This document shows positions 36,381-55,686 of a stretch of DNA of 64,000 nt, one piece after another. The translations under genes were made by a program, and so were the position numbers. Below the pieces are notes generated by a model, which made no database searches, had not been told where the DNA came from, and worked only from the letters and a program-made list of their open reading frames with translations. The stretch is from Calditrichales bacterium MX18-03 (GTDB taxonomy: Bacteria; Bacillota; Clostridia; Lutisporales; Lutisporaceae), in assembly GCA_021083345.1 (NCBI GenBank), contig JAJGRE010000005.1:62001-126000 (forward strand). The letters run 5' to 3'. Position 1 is the stretch's first letter; every line of letters begins with the position of its first letter.

Positions 36381-36415
36381 CAAGTAATAATAAGAGAAAT
36401 AAGAAAATGAAACTA

Positions 36416-36445: not shown

Positions 36446-36496
36446 GAAAGCGTAATAAATAAAAATAAAACGAAACAAAAAGAAAGAAGGTAAATC

Positions 36497-37504: not shown

Positions 37505-37556
37505 GAGACCTAGGATCATGACAAATTTTATGAGCTAGAAAGGTAAGCAGTGGATA

Positions 37557-38375: not shown

Positions 38376-38393
38376 AGATAGGAGAATAACATT

Positions 38394-39185: not shown

Positions 39186-39211
39186 AGCATCTATAAATGT
39201 GAGGAAGAAAT

Positions 39212-41068
39212 ATGAAAACTATTAAACTTACAATGGCACAGGCACTTGTAAAATTTTTGAATGCACAGTATGTAAATTTTGATGGCGTGGAAACAAAGTT
39301 TGTAGAAGGTGTAATGGGTATTTTTGGTCACGGGAATGTTGTTGGTATTGGTCAGGCCCTTGAGCAATATAAAAATGAGATAACCTATATTCAAGGTAAA
39401 AACGAGCAGGATATAGCCCATGCATGTATTGGCTTTGCAAAGCAAAGTAAAAGAAGAAAAATTTATGCTTGCACAGCTTCTATAGGTCCCGGCTCTTTGA
39501 ATATGGTTACAGCAGCAGGAACAGCCACTGTAAATAAGATTCCCGTTCTATTGCTTCCTGGAGACACCTTTGCTGACAGACAGCCAGATCCGGTACTTCA
39601 ACAGCTTGAAAATGAAGGAGATTATTCTGTTAGTGTAAATGATTCATTTAAGGCAGTGAGCAAGTACTGGGACAGAATTGTTAGACCGGAACAGCTTATG
39701 ACTGCTATGCTCAATGCTTTTAGGGTACTGACTGACCCTGCACAAACAGGTGCTGTAACAATATGCCTACCTCAGGATGTACAGGGTGAAAGCTATGCAT
39801 ACCCTGTAGAATTTTTAGAAAAAAGAGTATGGTATGTTAATCGATTAGTGCCCTCAATGAGTTCAATTGAAAGAGCCGCAAAGATAATAGAAGAAAGTAA
39901 GAAACCCTTAATAATTGCCGGTGGTGGTGTTAGATATAGTGATGCTGGCAAAGAGCTAATGAATTTTGCAAAAGAATTTAATATTCCCTTTGCAGAAACA
40001 CAAGCAGGAAAGGGTGAGGTATCCTTTGACTTTCCTCAAAATTTAGGCTGTGCTGGTGTCTGTGGCACCTTGTGCGCTAACACAATAGCAAAAGAAGCTG
40101 ATGTGGTTATTGGAGTGGGCACAAAGCTTAATGATTTTGTTACATCATCTAAAAGTGCATTCGCCATGGAAAATGTAAAGCTTGTTTCAATAAATGTAAA
40201 CTTAAAAGATTCTTTAAAGATGGATTCTGCTTCAGTTGTAGCAGATGCAAAGCTAGGACTAGAGGCCTTAGGACAGGTGCTAAAGAAAAGACGCTATAAG
40301 TCCGGGTATACCAACGATATTGAGAAAGCAAAAGAGTTGTGGCAATCAGAGCTTGACCGTTTAAGCGGTATTAGCTGTGATGAAGGGCTATCTCAAACAA
40401 GAGTTCTAATTGAGCTTAATAACATGCTGGGCATAAATGATATTATTGTTTCTGCTTCCGGCAGTATGCCATCTGATCTTGAAAGAATTTGGCGTCCCAA
40501 AAAACCTGGAACATATCACCTTGAATATGGTTTTTCTTGTATGGGGTATGAGATACCTGCTGCTCTAGGTGTAAAAATTGCTCATCCTGACTGTGAGGTA
40601 TATGCTCTGTTAGGTGACGGTGTGTTTATAATGTCACACTCTGAATTTATAACAAGCCTACAAGAAAAGAAGAAAATAAATGTAGTTTTATTTGATAATA
40701 ATGGGCACCAGTGTATCCATAATCTCCAACGTTCTCAGGGTATTGATTCCTTTGCTACAGAATTTAGATATAGAGATAATTTAACTTTATCCGGTGACTA
40801 TGTACCAATTGACTTTGCAAAAATTGCAGAGGGATATGGTGCTAAGGCATATAGAGTTAGAAACCTGGAAGAGCTAAAGTCTGCAATTATAGACAGTAAA
40901 AAGCAAACAATCTCTACCCTTATCGATATTAAAGTATTATCAGGTACTATGACAGAAGGATATGAGAACTTCTGGAGAGTTGGAACAGCATCCGTTGCGG
41001 AAAATGAAAACGTTGTTAAAGCTTTTAAAAAGTTAGCAAATAAGGTGAAAAGCTTAAAAAAGTATTAA
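39212..41068 (+). CDS. iolD: 3D-(3,5/4)-trihydroxycyclohexane-1,2-dione acylhydrolase
   Basis: This 618-residue thiamine-diphosphate enzyme has the N-terminal Pyr domain with the conserved Glu region (NEQDIAHACIGFA), a central Rossmann-like domain and a C-terminal PP domain with GDGVF...NNGHQC for ThDP-Mg binding. It opens the inositol ring by C-C hydrolysis. A GAGGAAG site precedes the ATG. Confidence 0.93.
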   Translation: MKTIKLTMAQALVKFLNAQYVNFDGVETKFVEGVMGIFGHGNVVGIGQALEQYKNEITYIQGKNEQDIAHACIGFAKQSKRRKIYACTASIGPGSLNMVTAAGTATVNKIPVLLLPGDTFADRQPDPVLQQLENEGDYSVSVNDSFKAVSKYWDRIVRPEQLMTAMLNAFRVLTDPAQTGAVTICLPQDVQGESYAYPVEFLEKRVWYVNRLVPSMSSIERAAKIIEESKKPLIIAGGGVRYSDAGKELMNFAKEFNIPFAETQAGKGEVSFDFPQNLGCAGVCGTLCANTIAKEADVVIGVGTKLNDFVTSSKSAFAMENVKLVSINVNLKDSLKMDSASVVADAKLGLEALGQVLKKRRYKSGYTNDIEKAKELWQSELDRLSGISCDEGLSQTRVLIELNNMLGINDIIVSASGSMPSDLERIWRPKKPGTYHLEYGFSCMGYEIPAALGVKIAHPDCEVYALLGDGVFIMSHSEFITSLQEKKKINVVLFDNNGHQCIHNLQRSQGIDSFATEFRYRDNLTLSGDYVPIDFAKIAEGYGAKAYRVRNLEELKSAIIDSKKQTISTLIDIKVLSGTMTEGYENFWRVGTASVAENENVVKAFKKLANKVKSLKKY

Positions 41069-41079
41069 AGGGGTGTAAT

Positions 41080-41967
41080 ATGAGTATTCAATTAGGTTGT
41101 GCACCGATTAATTGGTCAAATGATGATCTGCCAAGCCTTGGTGGAGAGCTTACCTATCAACAATGTTTAAGTGAAATAGCCCTAGCTGGCTTTACAGGCA
41201 GTGAAGGCGGTATTAAATATCCAAAGGCGTTTGATGTAATTAAAAAAGCAATTGATTTAAGAGGTATAACAATTTGCAATATGTGGTTTAGTACTGAGTT
41301 TACAATTTTTAAAAACGAAGATACCTACGAGCGGTTTGACAAGCATCTTGATTATACCTATGGACTAGGTGCAAGAGTTGTTGGTGCTGGGGAGTGTGGC
41401 ATTACTATTCACGGGAATGAAGAAATACCCCTTTTCAAAAATCGTCCTATTTTGAATGATGAGCAGTTTGAAAATCTAGCTGATGGTTTAAACGAGCTTG
41501 GCAAAAGAGCAAAGGATAAAGGAATGAAATTATGCTTTCACCCCCATGTTGGGACTGGTATTGAAACTAAGGCAGAAATTGACAGACTGATGTCATTGAC
41601 AGATAAGGAAACTGTGTTCCTTTTGTTTGATACTGGACATTTAACTCTTGCAGGGGAAAACCCTGTGGAGGTAATACAGCAGTATATCAACAGAATTGGA
41701 CATATTCATGTTAAAGATGTGAGGAGAAATATATTTGCGCAAGTGACAAAAAATGACCTAAGCTTTCTACAGGGCATTAAAAAAGGTTTGTTTACAGTTC
41801 CAGGCGATGGAGATATGGTTGATTGGGACGCTATCTTTAAAATTATTAGGGATAATCATTATGAAGGTTGGATCGTTGTAGAAGCAGAGCAAGATCCAGC
41901 AATTGCTGATCCTCTTGAATATGCCATTATAGCTCGTAAATTCATGGGCGAAAAACTTGGACTATAA
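41080..41967 (+). CDS. iolE: myo-inosose-2 dehydratase
   Basis: This 295-residue TIM-barrel xylose-isomerase-like protein begins with the IolE signature (LGCAPINWSNDDLP) and carries metal-binding Glu/His residues in CFHPHVGTGIET, FDTGH and HVKDV. It dehydrates 2-keto-myo-inositol to the trione used by IolD. It follows iolD after 11 bp. Confidence 0.93.
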   Translation: MSIQLGCAPINWSNDDLPSLGGELTYQQCLSEIALAGFTGSEGGIKYPKAFDVIKKAIDLRGITICNMWFSTEFTIFKNEDTYERFDKHLDYTYGLGARVVGAGECGITIHGNEEIPLFKNRPILNDEQFENLADGLNELGKRAKDKGMKLCFHPHVGTGIETKAEIDRLMSLTDKETVFLLFDTGHLTLAGENPVEVIQQYINRIGHIHVKDVRRNIFAQVTKNDLSFLQGIKKGLFTVPGDGDMVDWDAIFKIIRDNHYEGWIVVEAEQDPAIADPLEYAIIARKFMGEKLGL

Positions 41968-41988
41968 AGCCATAGAAAGGAAAAAACC

Positions 41989-42816
41989 ATGAAAAAATCA
42001 CTTCACACTAAAACAATATACAGAAGTAATTTAATATCAGATATTAGAATTGCTAAAGAAGCAGGCTATGACGCAGTTGAAATGGTTGGTACAAAAATAA
42101 TGAATTTTTTGGAGGCAGGCTATACATCAGCTGATGCAAAGGCGCTGCTAGATAAATATGATATGAAAATGGTCAGCATTGTAGATATTGCCCATGTTGA
42201 AAGAACAGATGCAGAATCGGTAAAAAGAATGTGCTATGAGGCTGAAGTGTTTTCTAAGTTTGCAAAAGATGTAGGCTGTAAACATATTCAGTTAGTACCC
42301 CTTTGCGCCCATGAGGGGAAAGCCTGGAATGAAGTCAAAAGGCTTACAGCCAGCAGTGTAAATCAAGTACTTGATATTGGGAAAGAAAATGATATCGTTT
42401 TTCAGCTGGAGCCAGTAGCCTGGTCACCAATACACTCCCTGTCACAGAGCCTTGATTTTATTGCCTACACAGGCAGAGATAATCTTGCTATGGTTATAGA
42501 TTTTTGGCATTTATGGTATGGGAATGAGACGAAGCCTTGCGAAGTCGCTGCATTAGATAAGAATATGATTTGCAATATTCACTTTTGTGATGGCAATAGG
42601 AATGCCCCAGGAACTGTTTGTGATGAAGAAGTTTTAAGGGCAGTATATGCAGGGGAAGGTTCTATTGATATGCAGGAGTGGATTGATGCAGTAAGAGCTA
42701 CAGGATATGACGGATATTGGTCCTATGAGCTTGTAAGTAGAAAGCATTGGGAAGCAGATACCAAGCTAGTAGCAAATACAACAAGTGCTGTTTTAGATAA
42801 GTATCTAAGCCGCTAA
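41989..42816 (+). CDS. Xylose-isomerase-like TIM-barrel sugar isomerase (IolI-like)
   Basis: This 275-residue protein belongs to the AP-endonuclease-2/xylose-isomerase-like superfamily, with likely metal ligands in FQLEPVAW, VIDFWHLWYG, IHFCDGNR and SYELVS. In the operon it may be an inosose isomerase (IolI), but related proteins isomerise hydroxypyruvate or other sugars. GAAAGGA precedes the ATG. Confidence 0.75.
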   Translation: MKKSLHTKTIYRSNLISDIRIAKEAGYDAVEMVGTKIMNFLEAGYTSADAKALLDKYDMKMVSIVDIAHVERTDAESVKRMCYEAEVFSKFAKDVGCKHIQLVPLCAHEGKAWNEVKRLTASSVNQVLDIGKENDIVFQLEPVAWSPIHSLSQSLDFIAYTGRDNLAMVIDFWHLWYGNETKPCEVAALDKNMICNIHFCDGNRNAPGTVCDEEVLRAVYAGEGSIDMQEWIDAVRATGYDGYWSYELVSRKHWEADTKLVANTTSAVLDKYLSR

Positions 42817-42871
42817 GAAAGTATTTAAGTTAAATAAAGCATGGGATCCGTGCCGTTGAGGTGAAAAGATT

Positions 42872-44050
42872 ATGTTTAATGAAGAGCTAAAGTATGATAG
42901 ACCAATTCGCTGGGCTATGGTAGGTGGCGGAAGAGGAAGCCAAATAGGATATATACACAGGTCATCAGCACTAAGAGATAGATCCTTTCAGCTTGTTGCA
43001 GGTGCCTTTGATGTCGATGTGACAAGAGGCAGAGAGTTTGGAGTAAACATTGGTGTTGCACCAGAGAGATGCTATAAGGACTATAAAGAAATGTTTGAGT
43101 CGGAAGGTAAAAGGGAGGATGGTATTGAAGCTGTTTCCATAGCAACACCTAATTTTACCCATTACGAAATATGTAAGACTGCTCTTCTAGAGGGCCTTCA
43201 TGTTATATGTGAAAAACCACTGTGCTTTTCTACGGAACAAGCAGAGGAGCTTGCAGAGCTTGCTGAAAAGCATAATAAGGTTGTTGGTGTGACCTATGGT
43301 TATACGGGTGCACAAATGATACATCAAGCTAGAAACATGATACAAAGAGGAGATCTTGGAGAAATTCGTATTATTAATATGCAGTTTGCTCATGGTTACC
43401 ATAGTACAGAAGTAGAAAAAAATGATTTAGGAACAAAGTGGCGGGTAAATCCTGCTACATCAGGGCCTAGTTATGTTTTAGGTGATACGGGAACCCACGC
43501 ACTATTTTTGGCTCAAACTATGGTACCTGATCTAAAAATTAAAAGTCTTCTTTGTACAAGACAAAGCTTTGTCAAAAGTAGAGCACCTCTCGAAGATAAT
43601 GCAACAGTTTTAATTAATTTTGAAAATGGTATTGTTGGAACCCTTTGGGCAAGTGCAGTGAATGCCGGCTCAATGCATCAACAAAAAATTAGAGTGATTG
43701 GCTCTAAGGCAAGTATTGAGTGGTGGGATGAACAACCAAATCAGCTTAAATATGAAATTCAAGGTCAGCCAGCACAGCTGTTAGAAAGAGGAATGGGCTA
43801 TCTTTATAATGAAGATGAGGCTGTATCGGGCGACCGAATAGGTGCAGGTCATGTTGAAGGCTTATTTGAGGCTTGGTCAAATCTATATCGCAGGTTTTGC
43901 ATTGCCATACATGCTAAAATAGACGGTAATAATGAAGCAGTGAAGGACCTATGGTATCCAAATATTCATGATGGTGTAGAAGGTGTAAGGTTTATCGAAA
44001 ACTGTTTACGCTCTGCAGACAACGGGTCTGTTTGGGTGGATTATAACTGA
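42872..44050 (+). CDS. Gfo/Idh/MocA-family dehydrogenase, candidate inositol dehydrogenase
   Basis: This 392-residue NAD(P)-dependent oxidoreductase has the Rossmann motif VGGGRGSQIG and the EKPLC catalytic Lys segment, with a C-terminal substrate domain. It is longer than typical IolG (about 340), so it may act on another inositol isomer or sugar. It ends the operon, which lacks visible iolA and a transporter. The start ATG follows GAGGTGA. Confidence 0.82.
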   Translation: MFNEELKYDRPIRWAMVGGGRGSQIGYIHRSSALRDRSFQLVAGAFDVDVTRGREFGVNIGVAPERCYKDYKEMFESEGKREDGIEAVSIATPNFTHYEICKTALLEGLHVICEKPLCFSTEQAEELAELAEKHNKVVGVTYGYTGAQMIHQARNMIQRGDLGEIRIINMQFAHGYHSTEVEKNDLGTKWRVNPATSGPSYVLGDTGTHALFLAQTMVPDLKIKSLLCTRQSFVKSRAPLEDNATVLINFENGIVGTLWASAVNAGSMHQQKIRVIGSKASIEWWDEQPNQLKYEIQGQPAQLLERGMGYLYNEDEAVSGDRIGAGHVEGLFEAWSNLYRRFCIAIHAKIDGNNEAVKDLWYPNIHDGVEGVRFIENCLRSADNGSVWVDYN

Positions 44051-44157
44051 AGGTGCCAGGTGACCAAACAAAGAATATAGTTAATGCATGGAGACCCAAA
44101 AAGTTCTGAAGTTCAGTGCATGCTGGAAGCTGAGATGGATGAGATGCAACTTTACTT

Positions 44158-44268
44158 ATAAGAAATGAACTTGTACAGGATACGGTAGTAAGGAATTTAG
44201 AGGTCATTGGAGAAGCAGTTAAAAAGATTCCAGAGGATATAAGAAGTAGTTACAAGGATATACCATGA
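44158..44268 (+). pseudogene. Remnant of a HepT-like (DUF86) toxin gene
   Basis: In one frame the DNA encodes IRNELVQDTVVRNLEVIGEA and continues VKKIPEDIRSSYKDIP before a TGA. This matches the middle of HepT-like proteins, where the next codon is normally Trp, so TGG probably became TGA. No start codon or remaining length is present and the partner MntA-type nucleotidyltransferase gene is absent. It is a dead fragment. Confidence 0.75.
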
Positions 44269-44408
44269 AAGAAGTAAGGCAGGACTGGGGAAAGAACCCT
44301 CAGTCCTTTTCATATGCCGATAGTTTGCCTGGGAGATATCAATGAAATTGGCAGCTTGGAGTCCAACAATACATGTCAGAATATTGAAAACCTTTTTGCA
44401 CTTAGTCG

Positions 44409-44437
44409 TTGTAAAATAATAGCGAAAATGATAGAAT
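44409..44437 (+). promoter_or_regulatory. Candidate kaiB promoter
   Basis: TTGTAA and TAGAAT are 17 bp apart, about 90 bp before kaiB. The same hexamer pair precedes the AraC gene of island 1. Confidence 0.45.
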
Positions 44438-44526
44438 TTTAGTAGATAATGTCGAATATAAATAGGTTTCGACTGAGCAAATGGAAGCCGATTATTTAAA
44501 AAAAATATCATAAGTGAGGGATCCAA

Positions 44527-44814
44527 ATGGAGGATAATGCTAACAGGTATATTCTGACGCTATATATAACCGGTGAGACGCAGACATCCAGGAAGACTAT
44601 AACGCTTTTGGAGGAGATTCTCGATAGTGAACTGCATGGAATGTATGAATTAAAGATTATTGATGTGTTGAAGCATCCCCAACTAGCTGAAGATGACAAG
44701 ATACTGGCGACACCAACATTGATTAAAATACTGCCTCCACCAGTAAGAAAGATCATTGGTGAATTGACAGACAAAAAAAAGATATTATTGGGCTTGGATT
44801 TTACTACTAAGTAA
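44527..44814 (+). CDS. kaiB: KaiB circadian clock protein homologue
   Basis: This 95-residue thioredoxin-like protein closely resembles cyanobacterial Kai[38 protein letters not shown] and [13 protein letters not shown] match the conserved core almost residue for residue. In cyanobacteria KaiB switches fold to bind phosphorylated KaiC and drive the cycle. It is followed by kaiC after 31 bp. GAGGG lies 6 nt before the ATG. Finding it in a Clostridium-like genome on an apparent island is unusual. Confidence 0.93.
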
Positions 44815-44845
44815 CCAAAGGCTAATAAATTTTTGAGGTGAAAGT

Positions 44846-46306
44846 ATGGAAGAAATAAGAAAAGGAATTAGCAAACTTAACACTGGAATTAAGGGATTAG
44901 ATGAAATGCTGATGGGAGGACTTCCAAAGGGTAGAGCTGCCTTAATAACAGGGCCTACAGGGACAGGAAAGACCGTTTTCTTAAATAGTTTTATATATTT
45001 AGGAATTACAAGGTATGATGAAAATGGAGTGTATGTTACTTTTGAAGAGACTCCTCAAGATATCATCTTGAATGTTCAAGGTTTTGGATGGGATTATAAA
45101 TCCCTTGTTGAAAATAAAAGGCTCGCATTTGTAGATGTTTCACCAAATGATGTGATTATGGAGATTGGCACCAATTATGATTTCACACCCCTTTTTAAAA
45201 GAATAGAACATGCTATAGAAAAAGTAAGTGCCAAACGAGTAGTGTTAGACTGCATTGATGCATTCTTCGCAAGATTTTTAAACAAGGATGCTGTAAGGTC
45301 ATCACTTAATCAGATTGCAGTTCATTTAAAGAGTTTAGGAGTTACAACCTTAATAAGTGGTGAACGGACAAGTGATGGAAGCGGGCATACAAGATATGGG
45401 ATTGAGGAGTTTGTTTCAGATGCAGTTTTGGAATTGGACTTAGTAGGAGGACAGCAACAGTTTCTCAGGACTATTTGTGTTAGAAAGATAAGGGGGACAA
45501 ATTATAGAAGCGGCTTGATGGAATTTGATATTACCTCTGAGGGTATTGAAGTATTTCCCAAAATACCGTACAAGAAAATTGAAATGAATACTGATTACAG
45601 CATTAGAAGAAAGTTTGGAATAAGACAACTGGATAGGATGTTATATGGGGGTATACCGCAGGGACATATGGTATTGCTCTCCGGCAACACAGGAACAGGA
45701 AAAACTACTTTTGGCATGCAGTTTTTAGTTAACGGAATCAAAGAAGGAGAAAACGTTGTTTTTGTAGCTTTGGAAGAGCCAATTGAACAACTTAAAAAGA
45801 CTGCGAAAAATCATGGATGGGATTTTGAACGCTTCCAAAAGGAGGGTAGATTAGATTTTGTCAGTACAGATTTAATAGATATCAGAAATGACAGATTGCT
45901 TTACTCAATTGTGAATGCCGTTAATTGCATAGGTGCCTCAAGAGTTGTTATAGATTCCGTTTCAAGTTTAATGTCAGCTTCGATGAATGAAGAGCAGGTA
46001 AGACAGTTTTTGATTCAACTATCCGGCTTCTTTAAAGAAAAAGGGGTAACCTGCATCATGAACTATTTAACTGGAAGCAGCTTTGGTGCAGTTAAGGGAC
46101 AACTAATGAGCAATATAATGACAAATGATATGAGACTCAGTTCGATTACAGATGGTATTATCCTGTTATTGTATGTTGAAAGGGGGCAAAGTGTTAAGAA
46201 GATGTTGAATATATTGAAGTTAAGGGGAAGCAAACATAGTAAGGAAGTCTATCGTTATGAAATTGAAAAGGGCAGGATAAGCATAATAGAGAAATATGAG
46301 GAGTAG
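44846..46306 (+). CDS. kaiC: KaiC double-domain ATPase/autokinase
   Basis: This 486-residue protein has two RecA-like domains: CI with Walker A GPTGTGKT (36-43) and the catalytic E67-E68, and CII with GNTGTGKT (280-287) and E310-E311. The CII phosphorylation site reads L-S432-S433-ITD, where cyanobacterial KaiC has Ser431-Thr432. The chain stops right after the CII domain, so the C-terminal A-loop tail that binds KaiA is missing; no KaiA gene is present either. GAGGTGA precedes the ATG. Confidence 0.93.
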   Translation: MEEIRKGISKLNTGIKGLDEMLMGGLPKGRAALITGPTGTGKTVFLNSFIYLGITRYDENGVYVTFEETPQDIILNVQGFGWDYKSLVENKRLAFVDVSPNDVIMEIGTNYDFTPLFKRIEHAIEKVSAKRVVLDCIDAFFARFLNKDAVRSSLNQIAVHLKSLGVTTLISGERTSDGSGHTRYGIEEFVSDAVLELDLVGGQQQFLRTICVRKIRGTNYRSGLMEFDITSEGIEVFPKIPYKKIEMNTDYSIRRKFGIRQLDRMLYGGIPQGHMVLLSGNTGTGKTTFGMQFLVNGIKEGENVVFVALEEPIEQLKKTAKNHGWDFERFQKEGRLDFVSTDLIDIRNDRLLYSIVNAVNCIGASRVVIDSVSSLMSASMNEEQVRQFLIQLSGFFKEKGVTCIMNYLTGSSFGAVKGQLMSNIMTNDMRLSSITDGIILLLYVERGQSVKKMLNILKLRGSKHSKEVYRYEIEKGRISIIEKYEE

Positions 46307-46312
46307 GTCAAT

Positions 46313-48649
46313 GTGAATAACGAAAATCCAAATGAATATTTATCTTGTTCCAATATTGACTTCAGACAGTTGATTGAAAGGATTCCAACCGGTATTATTC
46401 TTACTGATAAAAAAGGGATAATCCAGTATGCCAATCCTGCGTGTGAGGTGCTGTTCAATCGCAAAATAGAAGCACTGCTTGGACAAGATTTTGGAATACC
46501 TGTTGAATTAGGCAGAAAAACAGAAGTCGACATTTTTCGAAAGAACAGTAGTCCGGGTGTTGCACTTATGGAAGTGTTTGAAACAGAGTATAAGAATGAA
46601 AAAGCAAATCTTATTTGTTTTATAGATATTACCGAAAGAAAAGAAGCTGAGCAGGAGGTAATAAAACTCAACAGTGAGCTTGAAAAAAAAGTCACTGAGC
46701 AGCAAATTCTTTTAGAAACCACATTTGATAACAGCCAAGCAGGTATAGTAATAGCTGATGCTCCCGATGGAAGGCTGCGGTATGTCAATAAAGCAGGACT
46801 TTTAATAAGTAACACATCGGAAGAAGAAATTATTCAAAACGTAGATATTCAAAAATTTACATCAATATGGAATATACTGCATCTTGATAATACGCCTTAC
46901 AATCCGGAGGATGTGCCTTTGGCCAGGGCAGTTCTAAGGGGGGAAACCTGCAGCGAGGAATTTAAAATAAGAAGAGGTAATATGCAGGATAGGATAGTAT
47001 GGGCAAATGCTGCGCCGATTAAGGATAGGGAAGGCAATTTAACGGCTGGAATAGTGATGTTTCTTGATATTACAGACCGTAAGCAAGCTGAAGAAGAGCT
47101 GCTTGAGAGTGAAGAGAAGTACAGGACACTATATGAAACTGCAGGTGTTGGTATAGGATACTACAAATTGGATGGGACCATTATTTCATACAACAAAATA
47201 GCGGCAGAAAACATGGGAGGAATGCCCGCAGATTTCGTTGGGAAATCCATATTTGATGTGTTTCCAAAACGGGATGCGGATGTATATATGGACAGGATAA
47301 AAAGGGCAGCAGCCTCTGAAAGCAAGTTGGTATTTGAGGATAAGGTAGCGCTGCCAATTGGTGATATGTGGTTTTTAAGTACATTCAACAAAATACATGA
47401 CATAAACAATAATGTTACCGGCATACAAATTATTTCACAGGATATAACCAGTATAAAGCTAACAGAGGCTGCCTTGGCTGCGAGTAAAGAGGCAGCGGAT
47501 GCAGCAAATATTGCCAAGAGCGAATTCTTGGCAAATATGTCACATGAAATCAGAACTCCCATGAATGGGGTTATGGGAATGCTGCAGCTAATGCAAATGA
47601 CTGAATTAACGGAGGAGCAGGCTGAGTATATTAAAGCTTTCAAGACATCATCTGACTCGCTGCTAAAGGTAATAAATGATATCCTCGATTATTCAAAGAT
47701 TGAGTCGGGGAAATTAAAGGTTGAGAAGCTTAAATTTGATCTTTATGAATTTATCAGTAATATAGAAATTATATTTAAGCCTTCTCTTTTAGATAGCGGG
47801 CTGGTCTTGAATATACATATAGGGGATGATGTACCTCATAAGCTTATCGGTGATTCTTTTAAGCTGAGACAGATACTCTTAAACCTTATAGGTAATGCTA
47901 TTAAATTTACCCATAAGGGGCAGATCGATCTTGTCATAAGAAAAATATTTGAAAATGCAAATAATGAAATCAAGCTGGAATGGTTGGTGCAGGATACAGG
48001 AATTGGAATAAGCCAGGATAGAATTTTGGATATTTTCAATAGCTTTAGCCAAGCTGACAGTTCAATAACCAGAAGATATGGCGGGACTGGATTAGGACTA
48101 ACCATTTGTAAAGGACTAGTGGAGATTATGAAAGGAGAAATCTGGGCAGAAAGCAAAGAAGGTGAAGGTAGCAGGTTTTATTTTACTTGTGTACTAGATA
48201 AATATGATGATGAAGATAATATCATGAAAAAAGTAACAAAAAACAATGAAGATATAACGAAAGAAAGTGCACTGAGACTTCTCATAGTTGAGGATGATGA
48301 AATAAATCGGATAGTTATAGAGCGTTTAGCAAGGCAAAAGGGATGGCTAGTTACATTGGCTGAGAACGGTAAAGAAGCCATTGACGCATATAAAAGCCGC
48401 AGCTTTGATGTAATTATTATGGACATTCAAATGCCTGTTTTGGATGGGTTTCATGCTACGATAATGATAAGACAAATAGAGAGCCAAATAAAAAAGCATA
48501 CACCTATTATCGCTATGACTGCCTATGCGTTACAGGGTGATAGAGAAAAGTGCCTAGAAGCAGGAATGGATGATTATTTAACAAAACCAATTGATGTAAA
48601 CAAATTTTATACAGTAGTTGAGAAATTCTTTAAGGGTAGAACGAAATAA
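46313..48649 (+). CDS. PAS-domain hybrid histidine kinase with C-terminal receiver
   Basis: This 778-residue soluble kinase has three PAS domains (about 15-110, 130-255 and 265-385), HisKA with H411 (ANMSHEIRTPMNG), a HATPase_c domain (GGTGLGLTICKG, about 590) and a receiver with phosphoacceptor D704 (IIMDIQMP). No TM segment is seen, so it senses a cytoplasmic signal. It starts with GTG 46313 only 6 nt after the kaiC stop, with GAGGAG upstream, so it is almost surely the output or input partner of KaiC. Non-cyanobacterial KaiC genes are often paired with such kinases. Confidence 0.92.
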   Translation: MNNENPNEYLSCSNIDFRQLIERIPTGIILTDKKGIIQYANPACEVLFNRKIEALLGQDFGIPVELGRKTEVDIFRKNSSPGVALMEVFETEYKNEKANLICFIDITERKEAEQEVIKLNSELEKKVTEQQILLETTFDNSQAGIVIADAPDGRLRYVNKAGLLISNTSEEEIIQNVDIQKFTSIWNILHLDNTPYNPEDVPLARAVLRGETCSEEFKIRRGNMQDRIVWANAAPIKDREGNLTAGIVMFLDITDRKQAEEELLESEEKYRTLYETAGVGIGYYKLDGTIISYNKIAAENMGGMPADFVGKSIFDVFPKRDADVYMDRIKRAAASESKLVFEDKVALPIGDMWFLSTFNKIHDINNNVTGIQIISQDITSIKLTEAALAASKEAADAANIAKSEFLANMSHEIRTPMNGVMGMLQLMQMTELTEEQAEYIKAFKTSSDSLLKVINDILDYSKIESGKLKVEKLKFDLYEFISNIEIIFKPSLLDSGLVLNIHIGDDVPHKLIGDSFKLRQILLNLIGNAIKFTHKGQIDLVIRKIFENANNEIKLEWLVQDTGIGISQDRILDIFNSFSQADSSITRRYGGTGLGLTICKGLVEIMKGEIWAESKEGEGSRFYFTCVLDKYDDEDNIMKKVTKNNEDITKESALRLLIVEDDEINRIVIERLARQKGWLVTLAENGKEAIDAYKSRSFDVIIMDIQMPVLDGFHATIMIRQIESQIKKHTPIIAMTAYALQGDREKCLEAGMDDYLTKPIDVNKFYTVVEKFFKGRTK

Positions 48650-48754
48650 GACAGTAAAAAGCTTTGTTGGAGGCTTTATGGACTTCAAAATGTAGCAATG
48701 AATAAAGTTAAAAAAATTAATAAGAAAGACTTTCGTATTTGCTGATGTAACGGT

Positions 48755-48772
48755 GAACCGTATCATAAATAA
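48755..48772 (+). repeat. att-like repeat C (variant)
   Basis: GAACCGTATCATAAATAA differs from the rlmH end at two bases (CAC to CAT, AAG to AAA), both silent in the His-Lys-stop frame. The upstream flank CTTTCGTATTTGCTGATGT is nearly that of repeat B. Silent changes suggest it derives from the rlmH of a different lineage. Confidence 0.8.
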
Positions 48773-48893
48773 AGCGAAAATAGCCTAGAAGCAAGAAGCA
48801 CGAATATTTCCGAACTGTTTTGCTATATAGGCATTCAGGCTTGAAGGAAAATACAAAAAATGGTTGATGGAATGAGATGGAATATAAGAAATT

Positions 48894-48918
48894 GGGGCGG
48901 CAGCCCCTTTTATTTTTT
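48894..48918 (+). terminator. Rho-independent terminator
   Basis: GGGGC-GGCA-GCCCC is followed by TTTTATTTTTTT. It lies 245 bp past the hybrid kinase stop and past repeat C, so it may end read-through from the kai cluster. Confidence 0.85.
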
Positions 48919-48974
48919 TGCGCTTATTCAGATGAGGATGCTCAATGTAAGTAGCCCTTTTCATGAGTGATGAA

Positions 48975-49005
48975 TATACTAGTATATGGTGCGACCACAT
49001 ATAAT
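48975..49005 (+). promoter_or_regulatory. Palindromic operator and -10 of the glycan cluster
   Basis: TATACTAGTATA is a perfect 12-bp palindrome (48975-48986), and a half-site CTAGTATG lies just downstream. TATAAT is at 49000-49005, about 28 bp before the first gene. No -35 consensus is seen, so an activator may be required or the palindrome may bind a repressor. Confidence 0.5.
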
Positions 49006-49032
49006 CTAGTATGTAATTGAGAGGGAAATGCA

Positions 49033-49995
49033 ATGATCAAGCTTGCTTTGATAGGCTGTGGAAAATGGGGAAAGAATTATCTGAAAACTTTAGCTGCAAT
49101 AGAGGACTGTGAATTGAAGTGGGTCTGTGACCTTGACGATCAAAAGCTAAATCAGGCCGCTCCTGTTTACCTGCAGACGAGGTTCACTGAAAACAAAGCA
49201 GATATATTGGATGACAGTGAGGTACAGGGGGTTATTATAGCCACAACACCTGAAAGCCATTACATGCTGGCGAAGCAAGCAATAAACAAAGGTAAAGCTG
49301 TTCTCGTAGAAAAGCCTGTGACGATTAACAGGAGAGACAGTAATGATCTGATTGAATTGGCGGCTGCTCAAAATACCATATTGATGGCTGGTTACACATT
49401 GATTTACCATCCTGCCGTCAAAAAGATAAAGGGGCTCCTGGAAGAAAAAGATATTATTGATGAGCTATATTACTTGAACATGTCTAGAACCAGTTCGGCC
49501 TCTCAGGCTCCCGACGTAGATGTTCTTCATGATCTGGCAGTTCATGATATCTATCTTTCCCGCAACTTGATAGGGGTCGACCCTATCTGGGTAACTGCCC
49601 ATGGGGAAAGTTATAATCAAAGTCCTTATAACAATGTTATTAATATACTGATGGGTTTCCCGGATGGTAAAATAGCTTCTATATTTGCAAGCTTCATTCA
49701 TAGCGAAAAAACCAGGAGAATTACACTGGTGGCATCGAAAACAAAATTAGTATTTGATGATGCACAGACCACCGATAGAAAAGTCCAAATCTTCGTTAAC
49801 GGGGAGCGGGAGCATTTCTTGGCAGTTGAAGAGAATATGGAACCTCTGACACAGGAGTGTCTTCATTTTATCGAATGCATTAGAGAAAACAAGGAACCCC
49901 TTAGCGGCAGAGAAAATATAAATTTTGTGGCAAAAATAACGGATTGCATTTCCGACTCTCTTGCAAAAGGCGGAGAAAAAATCATCATCCGCTGA
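49033..49995 (+). CDS. Gfo/Idh/MocA-family sugar oxidoreductase
   Basis: This 320-residue NAD(P)-dependent oxidoreductase has the Rossmann motif LIGCGKWGKNY and the EKPVT catalytic Lys. The substrate domain is typical of nucleotide-sugar 3-dehydrogenases. With the aminotransferase four genes downstream it could make a 3-amino-sugar (dehydrogenation, then transamination) for a glycan. GAGAGGG precedes the ATG. The exact sugar is not known. Confidence 0.85.
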   Translation: MIKLALIGCGKWGKNYLKTLAAIEDCELKWVCDLDDQKLNQAAPVYLQTRFTENKADILDDSEVQGVIIATTPESHYMLAKQAINKGKAVLVEKPVTINRRDSNDLIELAAAQNTILMAGYTLIYHPAVKKIKGLLEEKDIIDELYYLNMSRTSSASQAPDVDVLHDLAVHDIYLSRNLIGVDPIWVTAHGESYNQSPYNNVINILMGFPDGKIASIFASFIHSEKTRRITLVASKTKLVFDDAQTTDRKVQIFVNGEREHFLAVEENMEPLTQECLHFIECIRENKEPLSGRENINFVAKITDCISDSLAKGGEKIIIR

Positions 49996-50038
49996 TGGAG
50001 ACGGTAAGTATTATTATCAGGTAAGTGTGGTAGAAATT

Positions 50039-51025
50039 ATGTTGGTTGTAAAGAGCTATTCGAAAGAACTTGAGAATGAATGGGAGGGATTTGTCGGTTC
50101 CTCAGTTAACGGTACTTTTATGCAGGAGAGAAAATTCCTGGGTTATCATCCTTCAGACAAGTTTTCAGATCATTCCCTGATATTTATGGAGGATAAGAGA
50201 ATCATTGCCGTTCTTCCTGCTGCCGTAGTACAGCAAGAGAATAAACGCATCCTATATTCTCACCCCGGCGCTTCCCATGGAGGGCTGATTATCAAGTCCA
50301 GTCTAAGCACTAAAAAATGCTTGGAGTTAGTAAGTGCCCTTGTTGAATATTGTGCCATGACCGGTTTTGACTATATACGGCTAAAACCTGTTCCGAGGGT
50401 TTACCATAGTGGGCTTTCGGACCAACTTGACTTTGCATTAAGGTTCTCGGGGTTTGAAATTGAGTATACAGAGCTGGCTACAGCCCTTGAGCTTAAGAAA
50501 GGCGAGGTACATTTTTTAAAGCAGGTGATGAGTTCCACAGCTTTTCGAAACTATCAAAAGGCACTGGAAAGCGGACTTTCGGTTATTGAGGATGCGGATA
50601 TAAATGATTATTGGACTATATTAGAGAATAAGCTTGAACTTAGCCATAATGCAAAGCCTACACATACATTTGAGGAAATCAGACATTTAAAAGAGCTTTA
50701 CCCTGATAAGATCAAGCTCTTTGCAGCCTATAAGGGGGAAACTCTTACAGCGGGTGCTCTGGTGTTTTTGCTAAACGAAAGAGCAATAAACTGTTTTTAT
50801 ATTGCCCATGACAACCAATACCAGCAAATGCGGCCTCTAAACCTTGTTTTTGGTTATCTGATGGAGTGGGGGCGAAAAAACGGTTTTTTTTATTTGGATT
50901 GGGGTATTTCCACTGAGGGAAAAGGAAGCAGGGTTAATGCCGGACTGTTTCAGTTCAAAGAAGGCTTTGGTGGGCATGGAGTGTTACGGGAAAGTTATTT
51001 GTATGCCGTAAACATTAAAAAATAG
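50039..51025 (+). CDS. FemAB/GNAT-fold acyl- or aminoacyltransferase
   Basis: This protein of about 328 residues has a double GNAT fold as in FemAB-like and BioF2-like acetyltransferases. Motifs include SHPGASHGGLI and, in the second half, KLFAAYKGETLTAGALVF and YLDWGISTEGKGS. It may acylate or aminoacylate a sugar amine in the cluster. The frame is open back to 49961, inside the previous gene; ATG 50039 gives a normal N-terminus, though its ribosome site is weak. Confidence 0.8.
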   Translation: MLVVKSYSKELENEWEGFVGSSVNGTFMQERKFLGYHPSDKFSDHSLIFMEDKRIIAVLPAAVVQQENKRILYSHPGASHGGLIIKSSLSTKKCLELVSALVEYCAMTGFDYIRLKPVPRVYHSGLSDQLDFALRFSGFEIEYTELATALELKKGEVHFLKQVMSSTAFRNYQKALESGLSVIEDADINDYWTILENKLELSHNAKPTHTFEEIRHLKELYPDKIKLFAAYKGETLTAGALVFLLNERAINCFYIAHDNQYQQMRPLNLVFGYLMEWGRKNGFFYLDWGISTEGKGSRVNAGLFQFKEGFGGHGVLRESYLYAVNIKK

Positions 51026-51042
51026 TTTAGTGGGGTAGGGCA

Positions 51043-51738
51043 ATGAAATTAGCAGGTCATCAACCGAATTATATTCCCTGGCCGGGATATTTTGTTAAGA
51101 TGGCACAGTGTGATATTTTTTTTATTTTAGATACTGCCCAGTTTCAAACAGGCAGTTCATTGGATAATAGGAATCTTATCAAAACTCCGCAAGGGGCTCA
51201 GATGCTCACTGTGCCGGTCAAACGCAAAGGCATGGGCTTGCAGCGATTTGATGAAGTTATGGTTATACCGGGTTGGAAAAGGAACCATCTTATGGCACTC
51301 CAAGTAAACTACGCAAAGGCACCTTGTTTTAAAGAAGTTTTCCCGTTGCTGGAGCAGGTATTGCAAGATACCGGGTATCTTATAGATACCAACAAAGCTT
51401 TTATCAAGCTTGTATGTGACCTGCTCAGACTGGAAACAAAGCTTGTTTTTTTGTCAGCTTTACCTCAATTTGTCGATCTTAGAAAAAATGAACTGATAGC
51501 TGCAATCTGCCGCCACTTTTCTGCTGACTGTTACCTGTCCGGTATTGGCGGGAGGGCATATAATCAACCCGAGATTTTTGAAAAACAAGGCATCAAGTTG
51601 GAATATCTGGACTATCAGCCTGTAACATATCCGCAGCTTTGGGGCAGCTTTATCCCCAATCTGTCTATAGTTGATATGTTATTTAACTGTGGGGCGGAGG
51701 GCACACGCAAGCTTTTGTTGAGCGAGGTGCAAGTATGA
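51043..51738 (+). CDS. WbqC-family protein
   Basis: This 231-residue protein has the WbqC-like signature at its N-terminus (HQPNYIPWPGYFVKM) and the LDTAQFQTGS segment. The family occurs in many O-antigen, glycopeptide and natural-product clusters and is thought to act on sugar or amino groups, but its reaction is not established. It overlaps the next gene by 4 nt. A GGGGTAGGG site precedes the ATG. Confidence 0.88.
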   Translation: MKLAGHQPNYIPWPGYFVKMAQCDIFFILDTAQFQTGSSLDNRNLIKTPQGAQMLTVPVKRKGMGLQRFDEVMVIPGWKRNHLMALQVNYAKAPCFKEVFPLLEQVLQDTGYLIDTNKAFIKLVCDLLRLETKLVFLSALPQFVDLRKNELIAAICRHFSADCYLSGIGGRAYNQPEIFEKQGIKLEYLDYQPVTYPQLWGSFIPNLSIVDMLFNCGAEGTRKLLLSEVQV

Positions 51739-52700
51739 TCAGGGTACTTTTTTTTTCACATGACTCGAAATATATTCTTGGGCTGCCGCAGGGCTTTAGG
51801 GAACTGAACTGCCCTGTTTTTGTCCTCAGGGATTTAAGTAGAAGTTCTATAAAAGAGGCAGTTGACCACTTTAGGCCTGACCTTATGATATCAACGGGAT
51901 GGGCTTACCGCCGGCATAAACGTGAGCATATAGACGAGCTGGTCAAAAGAGCTGCTAAATACAAGGTGAAACATGTCTATTGGGCAACTGAAGATCCAAG
52001 ATGGACGGAGGAATGTTCTTTCAAGTGTATTGAAATATATAAACCTGACGCGGTTTTTAGCATACATCCTGATAGTGTGAGTAAATACCATGCGCTGGGG
52101 CTTAGTGCCGGACACCTGGATTTTGGCTGCAATCCGGAGTTCAACAAGTTTGAGCCTCCCAGCAGCAAATATGCTTACGATGTGGTCTTAGTCGGAAATG
52201 GTGGCAAAGCCTGGAAGTCATACCGCAAGGATAGTGTACAGATACTGCTTAAGCCTTTGGTCGAAAGAGGCTATGACGTCGCGATCTGGGGTAGCAGATG
52301 GAATCGCTTCAACGAAGAGCTGATGGGTTTTAAGATCCCGAAGCACATGATAAAAGGGGAGCTGCCCTATGAGGAAACAAATAAGGTATATAACTCAGCA
52401 AAAATCATACTGGGACTTCAAAATGACCAGGAAATGTTAACCTCCAGAACCTTCGAAGTGCTGGGTTCGGGTGGTTTTCTTCTGACAGTGCCCACTCGGT
52501 CTGTCAATAATTTATTTACAAACAATGTTCACTTGACATGTTCAGATTCTCCAGAACATACTGTCAGGCTGGTAGATTACTTTTTGAAATATGACGAAAC
52601 ACGTAAGGCGATAGCACGAAACGGACAATCGGAGGTGTACACTAAACACACTTATAAGGAGCGCGCAGATCGAATTTTGAATTTTATGCAATTATGCTGA
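51735..52700 (+). CDS. CgeB-like glycosyltransferase
   Basis: This 321-residue protein has the features of CgeB/DUF3880 glycosyltransferases: an N-terminal Rossmann-like half (YWATEDPRWTEE) and a C-terminal nucleotide-sugar half (LTSRTFEVLGSGGFLLT). CgeB of B. subtilis decorates spores with sugars. Here it is probably the transferase that adds the modified sugar. It overlaps WbqC by 4 nt. Confidence 0.85.
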   Translation: MIRVLFFSHDSKYILGLPQGFRELNCPVFVLRDLSRSSIKEAVDHFRPDLMISTGWAYRRHKREHIDELVKRAAKYKVKHVYWATEDPRWTEECSFKCIEIYKPDAVFSIHPDSVSKYHALGLSAGHLDFGCNPEFNKFEPPSSKYAYDVVLVGNGGKAWKSYRKDSVQILLKPLVERGYDVAIWGSRWNRFNEELMGFKIPKHMIKGELPYEETNKVYNSAKIILGLQNDQEMLTSRTFEVLGSGGFLLTVPTRSVNNLFTNNVHLTCSDSPEHTVRLVDYFLKYDETRKAIARNGQSEVYTKHTYKERADRILNFMQLC

Positions 52701-52711
52701 AAGGAATCGAT

Positions 52712-53572
52712 ATGTTCAACCAGACTACTATCAATGATAAGGTCTCTATAATTGGTACCAGCATAACTGGTGGGACTGATGCAAAGGTTTCTTTTTATCC
52801 GGCCCCACCAGATACAGGCATAGTATTTATACGCAACGACCTTCCGGGTCGCCCCCAAATAAAGTGCACATTTGAAAAAGCAAAGGTTGAATACAGATGG
52901 ACTTCCCTCGTTGATGGAGATATACGCATTGAACACACAGAACATGCTCTAGCTGCTATATCAGGGTTAGAACTGGACAATTTGTTTATTGAGCTGGAAC
53001 AGCCCAGTTTGCCTGTGACACCGGATTACAGCAGTAAAGAGTTTACTCGGGCTCTCATGGGAGCTGGGGTAGCGGAACAATTCTCGAAGAAAGAGAAGAT
53101 AAAAATACATAAGCCCATTATTATTTACAAGCGTGAAAGCTCAGAGGAAGGAGAATATGAAAAGCTGCTGATTGCTCTTCCCTACGATGGGTTTAAATTA
53201 AGCTATGTACTTGATTATCCTAATCTGCCGCAATTATCACAAATAGCTGAAATGAACGTGACCCCAGAGACCTTTATCAAAGAGTTAGCGGAGGCCCGCT
53301 CTTATATAATTGAGTCGGAGCTAGAAGAAGTTGTAAACCTGACTGGAAAAGTCAGCTCAAATGTATTGGTGGTCAAATCCGGGGCTGAAAACAGGTCGTG
53401 GAAATGGCCCAATGAACCTGCCCGGCATAAAGTGCTGGACCTTCTCGGAGACCTTGGCTTGCTTGGGAAAAAGGTACTGGGACATGTGATAGGCTTCAGA
53501 TCCGGTCACCGGTTAAATCTAGAGCTGTGTAAAAAAATTTTTGAGGAGTGTAATGATGATTGCTTTGGCTAA
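52712..53572 (+). CDS. LpxC-like zinc-dependent N-acyl-sugar deacetylase
   Basis: This 286-residue protein has the LpxC metal and catalytic residues: E77-H78 (HTEHALAAI), H239 and D243 (ARHKVLDLLGDL) and H266 (FRSGHRLN). They fall at almost the same positions as E. coli LpxC H79, H238, D242 and H265. LpxC deacetylates UDP-3-acyl-GlcNAc for lipid A. No other lipid A gene is present here, so it probably deacetylates a UDP-GlcNAc-type sugar for this cluster. AAAGGA lies 5-6 nt before ATG 52712, preferred over ATG 52694, which overlaps cgeB. Confidence 0.88.
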   Translation: MFNQTTINDKVSIIGTSITGGTDAKVSFYPAPPDTGIVFIRNDLPGRPQIKCTFEKAKVEYRWTSLVDGDIRIEHTEHALAAISGLELDNLFIELEQPSLPVTPDYSSKEFTRALMGAGVAEQFSKKEKIKIHKPIIIYKRESSEEGEYEKLLIALPYDGFKLSYVLDYPNLPQLSQIAEMNVTPETFIKELAEARSYIIESELEEVVNLTGKVSSNVLVVKSGAENRSWKWPNEPARHKVLDLLGDLGLLGKKVLGHVIGFRSGHRLNLELCKKIFEECNDDCFG

Positions 53573-54635
53573 ACCCATGCTTGGTATAGAGGAAAAAATA
53601 CTGGTCAATGAAGTTCTTTCCAGTGGAAAGTTAGCCCAGGGAGAATATGTGGAAAGGTTTGAACGGGACTTTGCCGTATTCCAGGGCAGTAAGCATTGTG
53701 TCGCCACCTCTTCAGGAACCTCGGCCCTTCATGCGGCACTGCTGTCTTTGGGTATTAAACCGGGGGACAAAGTGATAACCACACCTTTCTCATTTATTGC
53801 AACTGCAAATGCCATCCTTTATGTACAAGCTGTTCCTGTCTTTTGTGACATTGATTTGCAGGATTACAACATTTCGCCTCAAGAGCTGCTGGATACCATC
53901 AAAAAACATCCTGATGCAAAAGCAATCATAATAGTTCATCTCTACGGGTATCCCGCGCATATGGCAGAGCTAATGGTGATAGCCGATAAATACAATCTGG
54001 CAGTGATAGAGGATTGCGCACAAGCTCACGGTGCGTCAATCAATGGCAAGAAAGTCGGAACCTTTGGGCACTTTGGGGTTTTTAGCTTTTATCCTACAAA
54101 AAACATGACCTGCGGAGAAGGCGGAATGCTTGCGACCTGGGACAAAGAGCTGGCTGAGAGGGCCAGGAGGTTGATAAACCATGGCCAGACAGCCAAATAC
54201 CAGCATGATGTGCTTGGGTACAATTACAGGATGACCAATATACATGCAGCAATAGGCATAGAACAGCTGCACAAGCTGACCGGCTTTAATGAAAGGCGCA
54301 AAACGATTGCAGCCCGATATTCGAGGGAGATAACCAACCCTGCTTTTATTAAGCCTGTATGCTTACCGGGCTTTGAGCATGTATATCACCAATATACCCT
54401 TTGGGTCAATAACCGGAACAGTTTCATAGAGTTCTTGGAAACACAGGGTATTGGGTATGGCATTCATTATCCCGCAGCTATCCCTGATCAGCCCCTGTAT
54501 CAGCAGGGAGAAATCCTCGGATTTTTCACAAATGCCCGCGTAGCTGCCGAAAGGGTAGTTTCAATTCCCGTTCACCCGGGATTAACAGAACAGGAGGTTG
54601 ATTACATTGTCAGCAGCTTACAAAAATATGCATGA
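53556..54635 (+). CDS. DegT/DnrJ/EryC1/StrS-family sugar aminotransferase
   Basis: This PLP-dependent aminotransferase of about 359 residues has the conserved start MIALAKPMLG, the SGTSALHAALLSLGI motif, and the PLP lysine in FYPTKNMTCGEGGM. It aminates a keto-sugar nucleotide. The frame allows TTG 53541 and ATG 53553, but GAGGAG ending at 53548 gives best spacing for ATG 53556. It overlaps the LpxC-like gene by 17 nt. Confidence 0.9.
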   Translation: MIALAKPMLGIEEKILVNEVLSSGKLAQGEYVERFERDFAVFQGSKHCVATSSGTSALHAALLSLGIKPGDKVITTPFSFIATANAILYVQAVPVFCDIDLQDYNISPQELLDTIKKHPDAKAIIIVHLYGYPAHMAELMVIADKYNLAVIEDCAQAHGASINGKKVGTFGHFGVFSFYPTKNMTCGEGGMLATWDKELAERARRLINHGQTAKYQHDVLGYNYRMTNIHAAIGIEQLHKLTGFNERRKTIAARYSREITNPAFIKPVCLPGFEHVYHQYTLWVNNRNSFIEFLETQGIGYGIHYPAAIPDQPLYQQGEILGFFTNARVAAERVVSIPVHPGLTEQEVDYIVSSLQKYA

Positions 54636-55686
54636 AATCAATAGTCCTCTGAGTGTGTTGGTTACAGGGGCAGGTTCGGTATACGGGCTGGGTATTATCA
54701 AGGCACTTAAAGCATCGGTGCTGCCTGTTGAAATAACAGCAATTGACGTTAACCCATATTCCCTGGGTTTATTTTTTGCCGACAAAGGCTTTATCGCTCC
54801 CCGGGCAGCAGCTGAAGAAAGCTATTATATGTTTATTGAAAACCTTTGTAAAGATCATCAGATTGAAGCGATATTTATCGGCTCTACAGCGGAGCTTTCA
54901 TTTTATGCAAAAAATAGAGAATCCCTTGAAAGGTCTACAGGAGCAAAGGTGTTTGTAAATTCTCCCGGAGTTTTGGAGATTTGCAGCGATAAGTGGCTGA
55001 CCATGTGCCATTTGTCACGCTACGGTTTTCAGGTTCCTGCAAGTATCAGGTATCCTGAAGATACTGGTATGCTCTCCTCATTTATAAAAAGTTCGGGTTT
55101 TCCCTTGATAGTCAAGCCGCGTATGGGACGTGGCTCAGAAGGTGTCGTTCTGGTCAAGGATAAGGAGCAGCTGCTTGGAAATGTAAAGGGTAAGAAAAGC
55201 CTAATTATACAGGAATATCTCACAGATGAGGAGCAAGAGTTTACCGTGGGGATTTGTATTAATCAAATAGGAAAGGTTATTTCCCAAATCGCTTTAAGGC
55301 GGTATTTGCAGGAAGGAGTTTCTATTGCTGCAGTTTCTGGTGGTTATCACGACATTGCAGATTATTGTGCCAGAGTTGCAAGTACACTGGGAGCGTATGG
55401 GGCTATAAATATTCAATTGCGCCTCAAAGATGGAATGCCGGTAATTTTCGAAATAAATCCCAGATTCAGCAGTTCCACAGGTATGCGGTTACTATTTGGA
55501 ATAAATGAGCCGGAAAGCTTAATACGCTCAGAAGTGCTTTGCCAAGAGGTAATACCCTGCCGCGCGGCGACCGGCATGGTATTGAGACAATACACTGATT
55601 ATTACTTTCCACTAGATAAGCTTAACTCGCTTTGTACAGACAGGCTTCACCATAGGGATTTAGGTGCCAGGTTACAAAACGAATAG
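54607..55686 (+). CDS. ATP-grasp ligase (CarB/PylC-like)
   Basis: This protein of about 359 residues has a preATP-grasp Rossmann part (LVTGAGSVYGLG) and an ATP-grasp domain with PLIVKPRMGRGSEGV, IQEYLTDEEQEFTV and metal-binding VIFEINPRFSSSTG. Such enzymes form amide or peptide bonds between a carboxylate and an amine. It overlaps the aminotransferase. Start is TTG 54607 after AGGAGG, less likely ATG 54628. It could attach an amino acid to the amino-sugar. The C-terminal codons include the AGGTGCCAGGT motif also seen at 44.05 kb. Confidence 0.82.
   Translation: MSAAYKNMHEINSPLSVLVTGAGSVYGLGIIKALKASVLPVEITAIDVNPYSLGLFFADKGFIAPRAAAEESYYMFIENLCKDHQIEAIFIGSTAELSFYAKNRESLERSTGAKVFVNSPGVLEICSDKWLTMCHLSRYGFQVPASIRYPEDTGMLSSFIKSSGFPLIVKPRMGRGSEGVVLVKDKEQLLGNVKGKKSLIIQEYLTDEEQEFTVGICINQIGKVISQIALRRYLQEGVSIAAVSGGYHDIADYCARVASTLGAYGAINIQLRLKDGMPVIFEINPRFSSSTGMRLLFGINEPESLIRSEVLCQEVIPCRAATGMVLRQYTDYYFPLDKLNSLCTDRLHHRDLGARLQNE

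Follow-up and report, generated by a model that had tools for sequence, protein, structure and literature searches.

A horizontally spreading seven-gene operon with a divergent LpxC-type deacetylase in monoderm bacteria and its possible amino-sugar product

Introduction

What might an LpxC-type deacetylase do in a monoderm bacterium? LpxC, regarded as an outer-membrane enzyme, is a main target of new antibiotics against Gram-negative bacteria. A 64,000-nucleotide stretch of the genome of Calditrichales bacterium MX18-03 (Clostridia, Lutisporaceae; assembly GCA_021083345.1, contig JAJGRE010000005.1, positions 62,001 to 126,000), here called the window, carries an LpxC-type gene inside a seven-gene operon on the forward strand (49033-55686), here called the cassette. 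The original prediction, made from this DNA alone, was that its genes, one of them for a CgeB-type glycosyltransferase, could make an amino-acylated, deacetylated amino sugar and attach it to a surface, spore, or small-molecule acceptor. We find that the cassette is a self-contained, horizontally spreading operon of monoderm, mostly spore-forming bacteria. We give about even chances to its making an amino-acid-substituted amino sugar, specifically a 2,3-diamino sugar derived from UDP-N-acetylglucosamine (UDP-GlcNAc) and transferred through CgeB; we infer the chemistry of this product throughout.

Results

The cassette recurs at 20 loci in two classes

All seven open reading frames (ORFs) are intact and each scores above the Pfam cut-off of its family (Table 1), which confirms that the seven families named in the original prediction are present as one operon. 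Catalytic residues are invariant across relatives: the EKP and HD motifs of Gfo, Lys187 of DegT, the EH, HK, D, and H residues of LpxC, and E285 and N287 of the ATP-grasp protein.

The cassette LpxC was found in 4 of 391 genomes of the window's class, all from the window's own family, and these four share one gene content and gene order for the seven genes, between differing flanks. Scanning named genomes turned up five more carriers with about 80-83% LpxC identity: Clostridium sulfidigenes, C. peptidivorans, C. pascui, Clostridium sp. BSD9I1, and C. rhizosphaerae. Some carriers are in culture, for example C. sulfidigenes and C. pascui. Close cassettes are thus known from eight genomes besides the window, with the same order and different flanks; DegT has been lost in four of the five Clostridium cassettes. 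A FemAB search led to three sister-class genomes with all seven genes at 34-54% identity, and an LpxC profile built from both sets found 12 of 113 sister-class genomes, in seven genera and four families. Eleven of the 12 hold all seven gene types (35-70% identity), and the twelfth (G828) holds a decayed remnant, with pieces of Gfo, CgeB, LpxC, and ATP-grasp within about 1 kb (L148, 8366-9380). Two further gene orders occur in the sister class, one with WbqC behind DegT and the other with CgeB at the end and a second WbqC. In one family this extra WbqC lies after CgeB (L145, 13615-14301; L147, 13663-14349), so two WbqC proteins serve one cassette there. In one metagenome-assembled genome (MAG; G007), LpxC lacks about the first 57 residues in the matched frame (L009, 2411-3115), by truncation or assembly error.

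In total the cassette is known from 20 loci, which span two classes and three gene orders; the gaps are mostly -35 to +100 bp, and DegT is absent at 4 of the 20. Because the set recurs at these loci with short gaps and its genes are under purifying selection (ratio of nonsynonymous to synonymous substitution rates, dN/dS, of 0.1 to 0.4), the arrangement is not due to chance. Searching for the same gene order elsewhere, as had been proposed, thus returned eight other genomes with that order and related sets in eleven more, and none of these eight close and eleven related clusters was found assigned to a product. The listed TTG starts of FemAB, DegT, and ATP-grasp are mechanical calls, and FemAB probably begins at ATG 50039, which matches the starts of its relatives and leaves no overlap with Gfo.

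Table 1. Features of the cassette in the window
Feature	Position	Strand	Evidence and remarks
Leader common to close cassettes	48875..49032	+	Terminator-like hairpin, then promoter region; alignment of nine upstream regions
Gfo/Idh/MocA sugar dehydrogenase	49033..49995	+	Pfam Gfo/Idh/MocA 75 bits; nearest NCBIfam model UDP-GlcNAc 3-dehydrogenase, below cut-off
FemAB/GNAT-type acyl or aminoacyl transferase	50039..51025	+	FemAB 27.5 bits, GNAT_6 26.6 bits; ORF opens at 49961
WbqC family protein	51043..51738	+	WbqC 227 bits; predicted fold nearest BshC
CgeB-type glycosyltransferase	51735..52700	+	Glyco_trans_1_2 101.9 bits, DUF3880 45 bits
LpxC-type Zn deacetylase, distinct non-lipid-A clade	52694..53572	+	PF03331 207.7 bits; true start perhaps a few codons downstream
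DegT/DnrJ pyridoxal phosphate (PLP) aminotransferase	53541..54635	+	DegT 396.6 bits; Lys187 conserved; gone from four Clostridium cassettes
ATP-grasp ligase, PRK12767 type (carbamoyl-phosphate-synthase-like)	54598..55686	+	ATP-grasp_3 50.9 bits; PRK12767 311 bits, cut-off 218

The cassette has well-defined boundaries and moves between hosts

The neighbors of the cassette in the window, KaiC and a histidine kinase upstream and an MFS transporter downstream, do not accompany it at other locations. The boundaries are therefore well defined, and the transporter and the KaiC/kinase genes were rejected as cassette members. The upstream neighbors form an operon of kaiB (PF07689, 94.8 bits), a double-domain kaiC, and a hybrid histidine kinase (44527-48649) in this Clostridia-type genome.

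In the five Clostridium species the G+C content of the cassette is 39-41%, versus 29-33% for its flanks. Between the window and Clostridium sp. BSD9I1, whose families differ, synonymous divergence in Gfo, WbqC, and ATP-grasp is just 0.25-0.31 changes per site. No integrase was seen accompanying the cassette. Carriage by phages was rejected, since no relative occurred among viral contigs, as was carriage by plasmids, whose matches were only to canonical LpxC at about 31% identity or less.

Between the window (51735-53569) and locus L007 (11489-13322), synonymous divergence (dS) was 0.83 for CgeB and 0.58 for LpxC and only 0.13-0.23 for the other five genes, which suggests mosaic exchange within the cassette. 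The G+C fraction of the window drops from about 0.48 to 0.37 (33000-49000) just past rlmH (32199-32678), and the cassette adjoins or lies near rlmH in two Clostridium genomes (L015, 11941-12450; L016, 14987-15466); the rlmH region may therefore be an insertion hotspot.

The cassette LpxC diverges from the canonical enzyme, and tested carriers lack LpxA and LpxB

The cassette copy is the single LpxC of the window genome (4.69 Mb, 15 contigs). It belongs to the LpxC superfamily, its PF03331 score comparing with a cut-off of 27 bits, and its AlphaFold model matches a solved LpxC from P. aeruginosa at a Z score of about 31. All 19 cassette sequences retain the zinc ligands H79, H238, and D242 and the catalytic residues E78 and H265. 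They have lost the GLH[ST]G motif: H19 is present in none of the 19 cassette sequences versus 72 of 72 canonical ones, and position 63 is Trp in all 19. Insert II, a part of the acyl tunnel, has 27 residues versus 30 in canonical LpxC, with the deletion at C207; the E. coli tunnel includes L18, L62, I198, C207, F212, and V217 (PMC11472313). A branch with 100/100 support separates the 36 cassette rows (duplicates included) from the rest of a 109-row tree.

Neither LpxA (PF13720) nor LpxB (PF02684) had a match in the nine carrier genomes tested, and lipid A synthesis in the host was rejected on that basis. A Clostridia MAG with a 37% identical LpxC (L020) was also set aside; it has a canonical lpx operon, with genes for BamA, LpxD, LpxC, and LpxA. 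The shortened tunnel insert suggests a substrate that lacks a long fatty acid at C3, and from its sequence we infer that the cassette enzyme is a deacetylase whose substrate carries no long acyl chain.

Enzyme families suggest a route to a substituted diamino sugar

GnnA and GnnB produce GlcN3N (2,3-diamino-2,3-dideoxyglucose) from UDP-GlcNAc (PMC8036547). The window holds a Gfo/Idh and DegT pair with the EKP and HD motifs and the PLP lysine, and by analogy this pair resembles GnnA/GnnB. On that precedent, Gfo/Idh would oxidize C3 of UDP-GlcNAc and DegT would aminate it to a 3-amino sugar. The LpxC-type enzyme, with its catalytic residues in place, would then strip the 2-N-acetyl group.

The amines might next be loaded with amino acids or acyl groups by WbqC, ATP-grasp, and FemAB. 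The best FemAB relative in the PDB is an aminoacyl-tRNA-dependent peptide synthase (E = 0.001), and the ATP-grasp protein exceeds its PRK12767 cut-off. The WbqC model (pLDDT, a per-residue model confidence score, 83.6) matched Bacillus subtilis BshC with a Z score of 14.2 over 222 of 231 residues, with the next structure at 8.6, and Foldseek matched it to 4wbd (E = 1.6e-4, TM score 0.52); no PDB relative was found by sequence. BshC is a putative cysteine ligase acting after the GlcNAc deacetylase in bacillithiol synthesis (PMC4360819). Because the WbqC model resembles BshC, an amine-freeing deacetylase and a ligase that may use that amine would share one operon. In a last step CgeB would pass the sugar to its acceptor. 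The CgeB-type assignment comes from the domains Glyco_trans_1_2 and DUF3880, both above the Pfam cut-off.

Leader and neighbors may hint at a link to sporulation

A GAATATACTA box is conserved about 60-50 bp before the Gfo start in the nine aligned upstream regions. Of 20 leaders, 14 have a box resembling sigK promoters (AC-N17-nATAnnnTA) that scores 7-8 of 8, compared with 19.5% of Markov shuffles and 14% of other intergenic regions; the window's own leader scored just 6 of 8, which is weak. For sigE, sigG, and sigA consensus promoters the leaders did no better than shuffles. In two genera of one family, two CotE genes and an APH-type kinase gene adjoin the cassette, and CotE occurs in only 18 of 113 sister-class genomes. 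SpoIVA is present in 19 of 21 carriers. CgeB is counted among the B. subtilis crust glycosyltransferases (PMC10502511), and crust legionaminic acid requires spsC, spsD, spsE, and spsG (PMC7439481). Neither a nonulosonate synthase nor a cytidylyltransferase is among the seven cassette genes. A spore-coat component is our leading guess for the acceptor, weakly supported, and somewhat likelier than a soluble small molecule.

Several observations weigh against the proposed route

Three scores stay below the NCBIfam cut-offs. The top NCBIfam model for Gfo is UDP-GlcNAc 3-dehydrogenase (NF040723, the only such model, which is archaeal), and its score of 119 bits lies below the cut-off of 450; the best model for DegT is PseC, a C4 aminotransferase, also below cut-off, while the PDB relatives of DegT include WbpE and QdtB; and LpxC scored 153.6 bits against the canonical lipid A equivalog TIGR00325, whose cut-off is 187.25. 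A search by sequence profile found no WbqC-BshC kinship, which is seen only in the predicted structure.

The possible link to sporulation is open to objections as well. The counts of sigK-like boxes are not independent, because leaders within a family are related. CotE lies beside the cassette in one family only and is absent from the other carriers, and in most carriers, the window included, no spore gene adjoins the cassette. As a discriminating marker SpoIVA fails, since 104 of 113 sister-class genomes have it.

What speaks most strongly against a strict 3-amination pathway, and is not explained by our model, is the loss of DegT. It is cleanly deleted in four of the five Clostridium cassettes with the rest kept (L012, L015, L016, and L017, near 10830-10960), through three distinct junctions. 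In C. sulfidigenes a short DegT start and about the last 25 codons remain, in C. rhizosphaerae a short start runs straight into the last codons, and the deletion common to C. pascui and BSD9I1 leaves the DegT start immediately ahead of ATP-grasp. No close copy of DegT was found elsewhere in these genomes, just paralogues at 32-38% identity; paralogues of this kind also occur in C. peptidivorans, whose cassette DegT is retained. The six remaining genes are constrained, with dN/dS of 0.11 to 0.32 in the comparison of C. pascui with BSD9I1, the pair with the common deletion. With DegT gone and six genes still selected, 3-amination is not essential in these species unless a 32-38% paralogue substitutes. 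Either the product tolerates losing one amine or another aminotransferase serves.

Discussion

Alternative explanations

The main rival to a substituted diamino sugar, which we consider unlikely on present evidence, is a bacillithiol-like small molecule, with CgeB linking a small acid or a cyclitol to the amino sugar to give a soluble pseudo-disaccharide thiol or an exported metabolite. LpxC would play the role of BshB, WbqC that of BshC, and FemAB that of MshD. Bacillithiol and mycothiol synthesis proceed in this order, from a glycosyltransferase through a deacetylase and a Cys ligase to an acetyltransferase (PMC4360819). The closeness of the WbqC model to BshC (Z of 14.2) fits this reading, as do the self-contained, mobile character of the cassette and its lack of genes for a flippase, a polymerase, or anchoring. 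Gfo/Idh, DegT, and ATP-grasp, however, have no place in bacillithiol synthesis as known, and the kinship of WbqC with BshC is structural only. BshB is an LmbE-type enzyme, not an LpxC; the deacetylase of the cassette is of the PF03331 type, with no LmbE-type enzyme in the set. Nor does a thiol-utilization gene travel with the cassette.

The cassette could instead make no more than one decorated monosaccharide, a fragment of an ordinary glycan of the surface or O-antigen type, for flagellin or a vegetative polysaccharide. FemAB-type, DegT, and glycosyltransferase genes are frequent neighbors in polysaccharide loci, the L145 cassette lies in a stretch with RmlB/RmlD-like genes and further glycosyltransferases, and in L147, too, some neighbors resemble glycosyltransferases. 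Polysaccharide, flagellar, and export genes are not beside the cassette in most carriers, though, and we regard this explanation as improbable. Least credible by far is that LpxC is a leftover of lipid A synthesis in an ancestor whose descendants lost the outer membrane. A diderm ancestry of Firmicutes has been argued (PMC5007114), and for Desulfotomaculum acetoxidans and a Dehalobacteriia strain a 2024 survey reports a lone lpxC gene each, suggesting that these may be what remains of a paralogous lpxC2 region (PMC11448272). A nonfunctional vestige is contradicted by the intact catalytic residues and purifying selection, by a strict association with six further genes, by horizontal transfer that left a foreign base composition in the Clostridium cassettes, and by the absence of LpxA and LpxB. 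Distant descent from an old lpxC paralogue is still conceivable. An amino-acylated, deacetylated amino sugar moved by CgeB remains the best reading, and the original prediction is partly supported.

Relation to known systems

The cassette shares with the GnnA/GnnB route to GlcN3N lipid A (with LpxA and LpxC) a Gfo/Idh oxidoreductase, a DegT aminotransferase, and an LpxC-type 2-N-deacetylase. It differs in lacking LpxA and LpxB, in an LpxC without H19 and with the shortened acyl-tunnel insert, in the added FemAB, WbqC, ATP-grasp, and CgeB, and in a DegT that is dispensable in some species. With the bacillithiol and mycothiol pathways (BshA-BshB-BshC; MshA-MshB-MshC-MshD) it has in common a glycosyltransferase, a GlcNAc-type deacetylase, a ligase of BshC-like predicted fold, and a GNAT-type transferase; unlike them, it uses an LpxC-type rather than LmbE-type deacetylase and adds C3 oxidation and amination and an ATP-grasp ligase. 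The spore-crust genes of B. subtilis (spsA-L, spsM, cgeAB) likewise combine a CgeB-family glycosyltransferase with an aminotransferase and an acyltransferase for an amino sugar in a spore former, and the CotE genes adjoining the cassette in two relatives recall that setting. The cassette, in contrast, has no 4,6-dehydratase, nonulosonate synthase, or cytidylyltransferase, and sps/cge as described have no LpxC, WbqC, or ATP-grasp.

The lpxC2 region of some Bacillota also provides a stand-alone LpxC paralogue in monoderms, probably of the same LpxC clade; the main text of the 2024 survey describes it as isolated and possibly vestigial, whereas here LpxC lies within an intact seven-gene operon (PMC11448272). 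Stand-alone LpxC in monoderm Bacillota is therefore not new. The cassette gives these lone genes an operon and argues against their being vestiges. We found no report of the seven-gene operon, and no described pathway with this gene set, in the open-access literature, in agreement with the original prediction. The novelty is a new combination of known enzyme families. To the first reading of this DNA the present analysis adds the cassette boundaries, horizontal transfer, the absence of lipid A genes, the divergence of LpxC, the BshC-like predicted fold of WbqC, and the repeated loss of DegT.

Implications

More tentatively, and as a possibility rather than a probability, the cassette may represent a new class of amino-sugar/amino-acid conjugates in monoderms, with an LpxC recruited from lipid A chemistry, a BshC-related WbqC ligase, and a mobile pathway that mixes lipid A-type and bacillithiol-type chemistry. 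If a conserved LpxC of altered shape is at work in Gram-positive-type Clostridia, lone lpxC genes would have to be read differently, and the enzyme would reveal what the LpxC fold can do without an acyl chain. If the predicted fold is a guide, the cassette may also tie WbqC, a widespread family for which our searches gave no functional assignment, to the ligation of amino acids onto amino sugars, which, if true, would be a testable activity.

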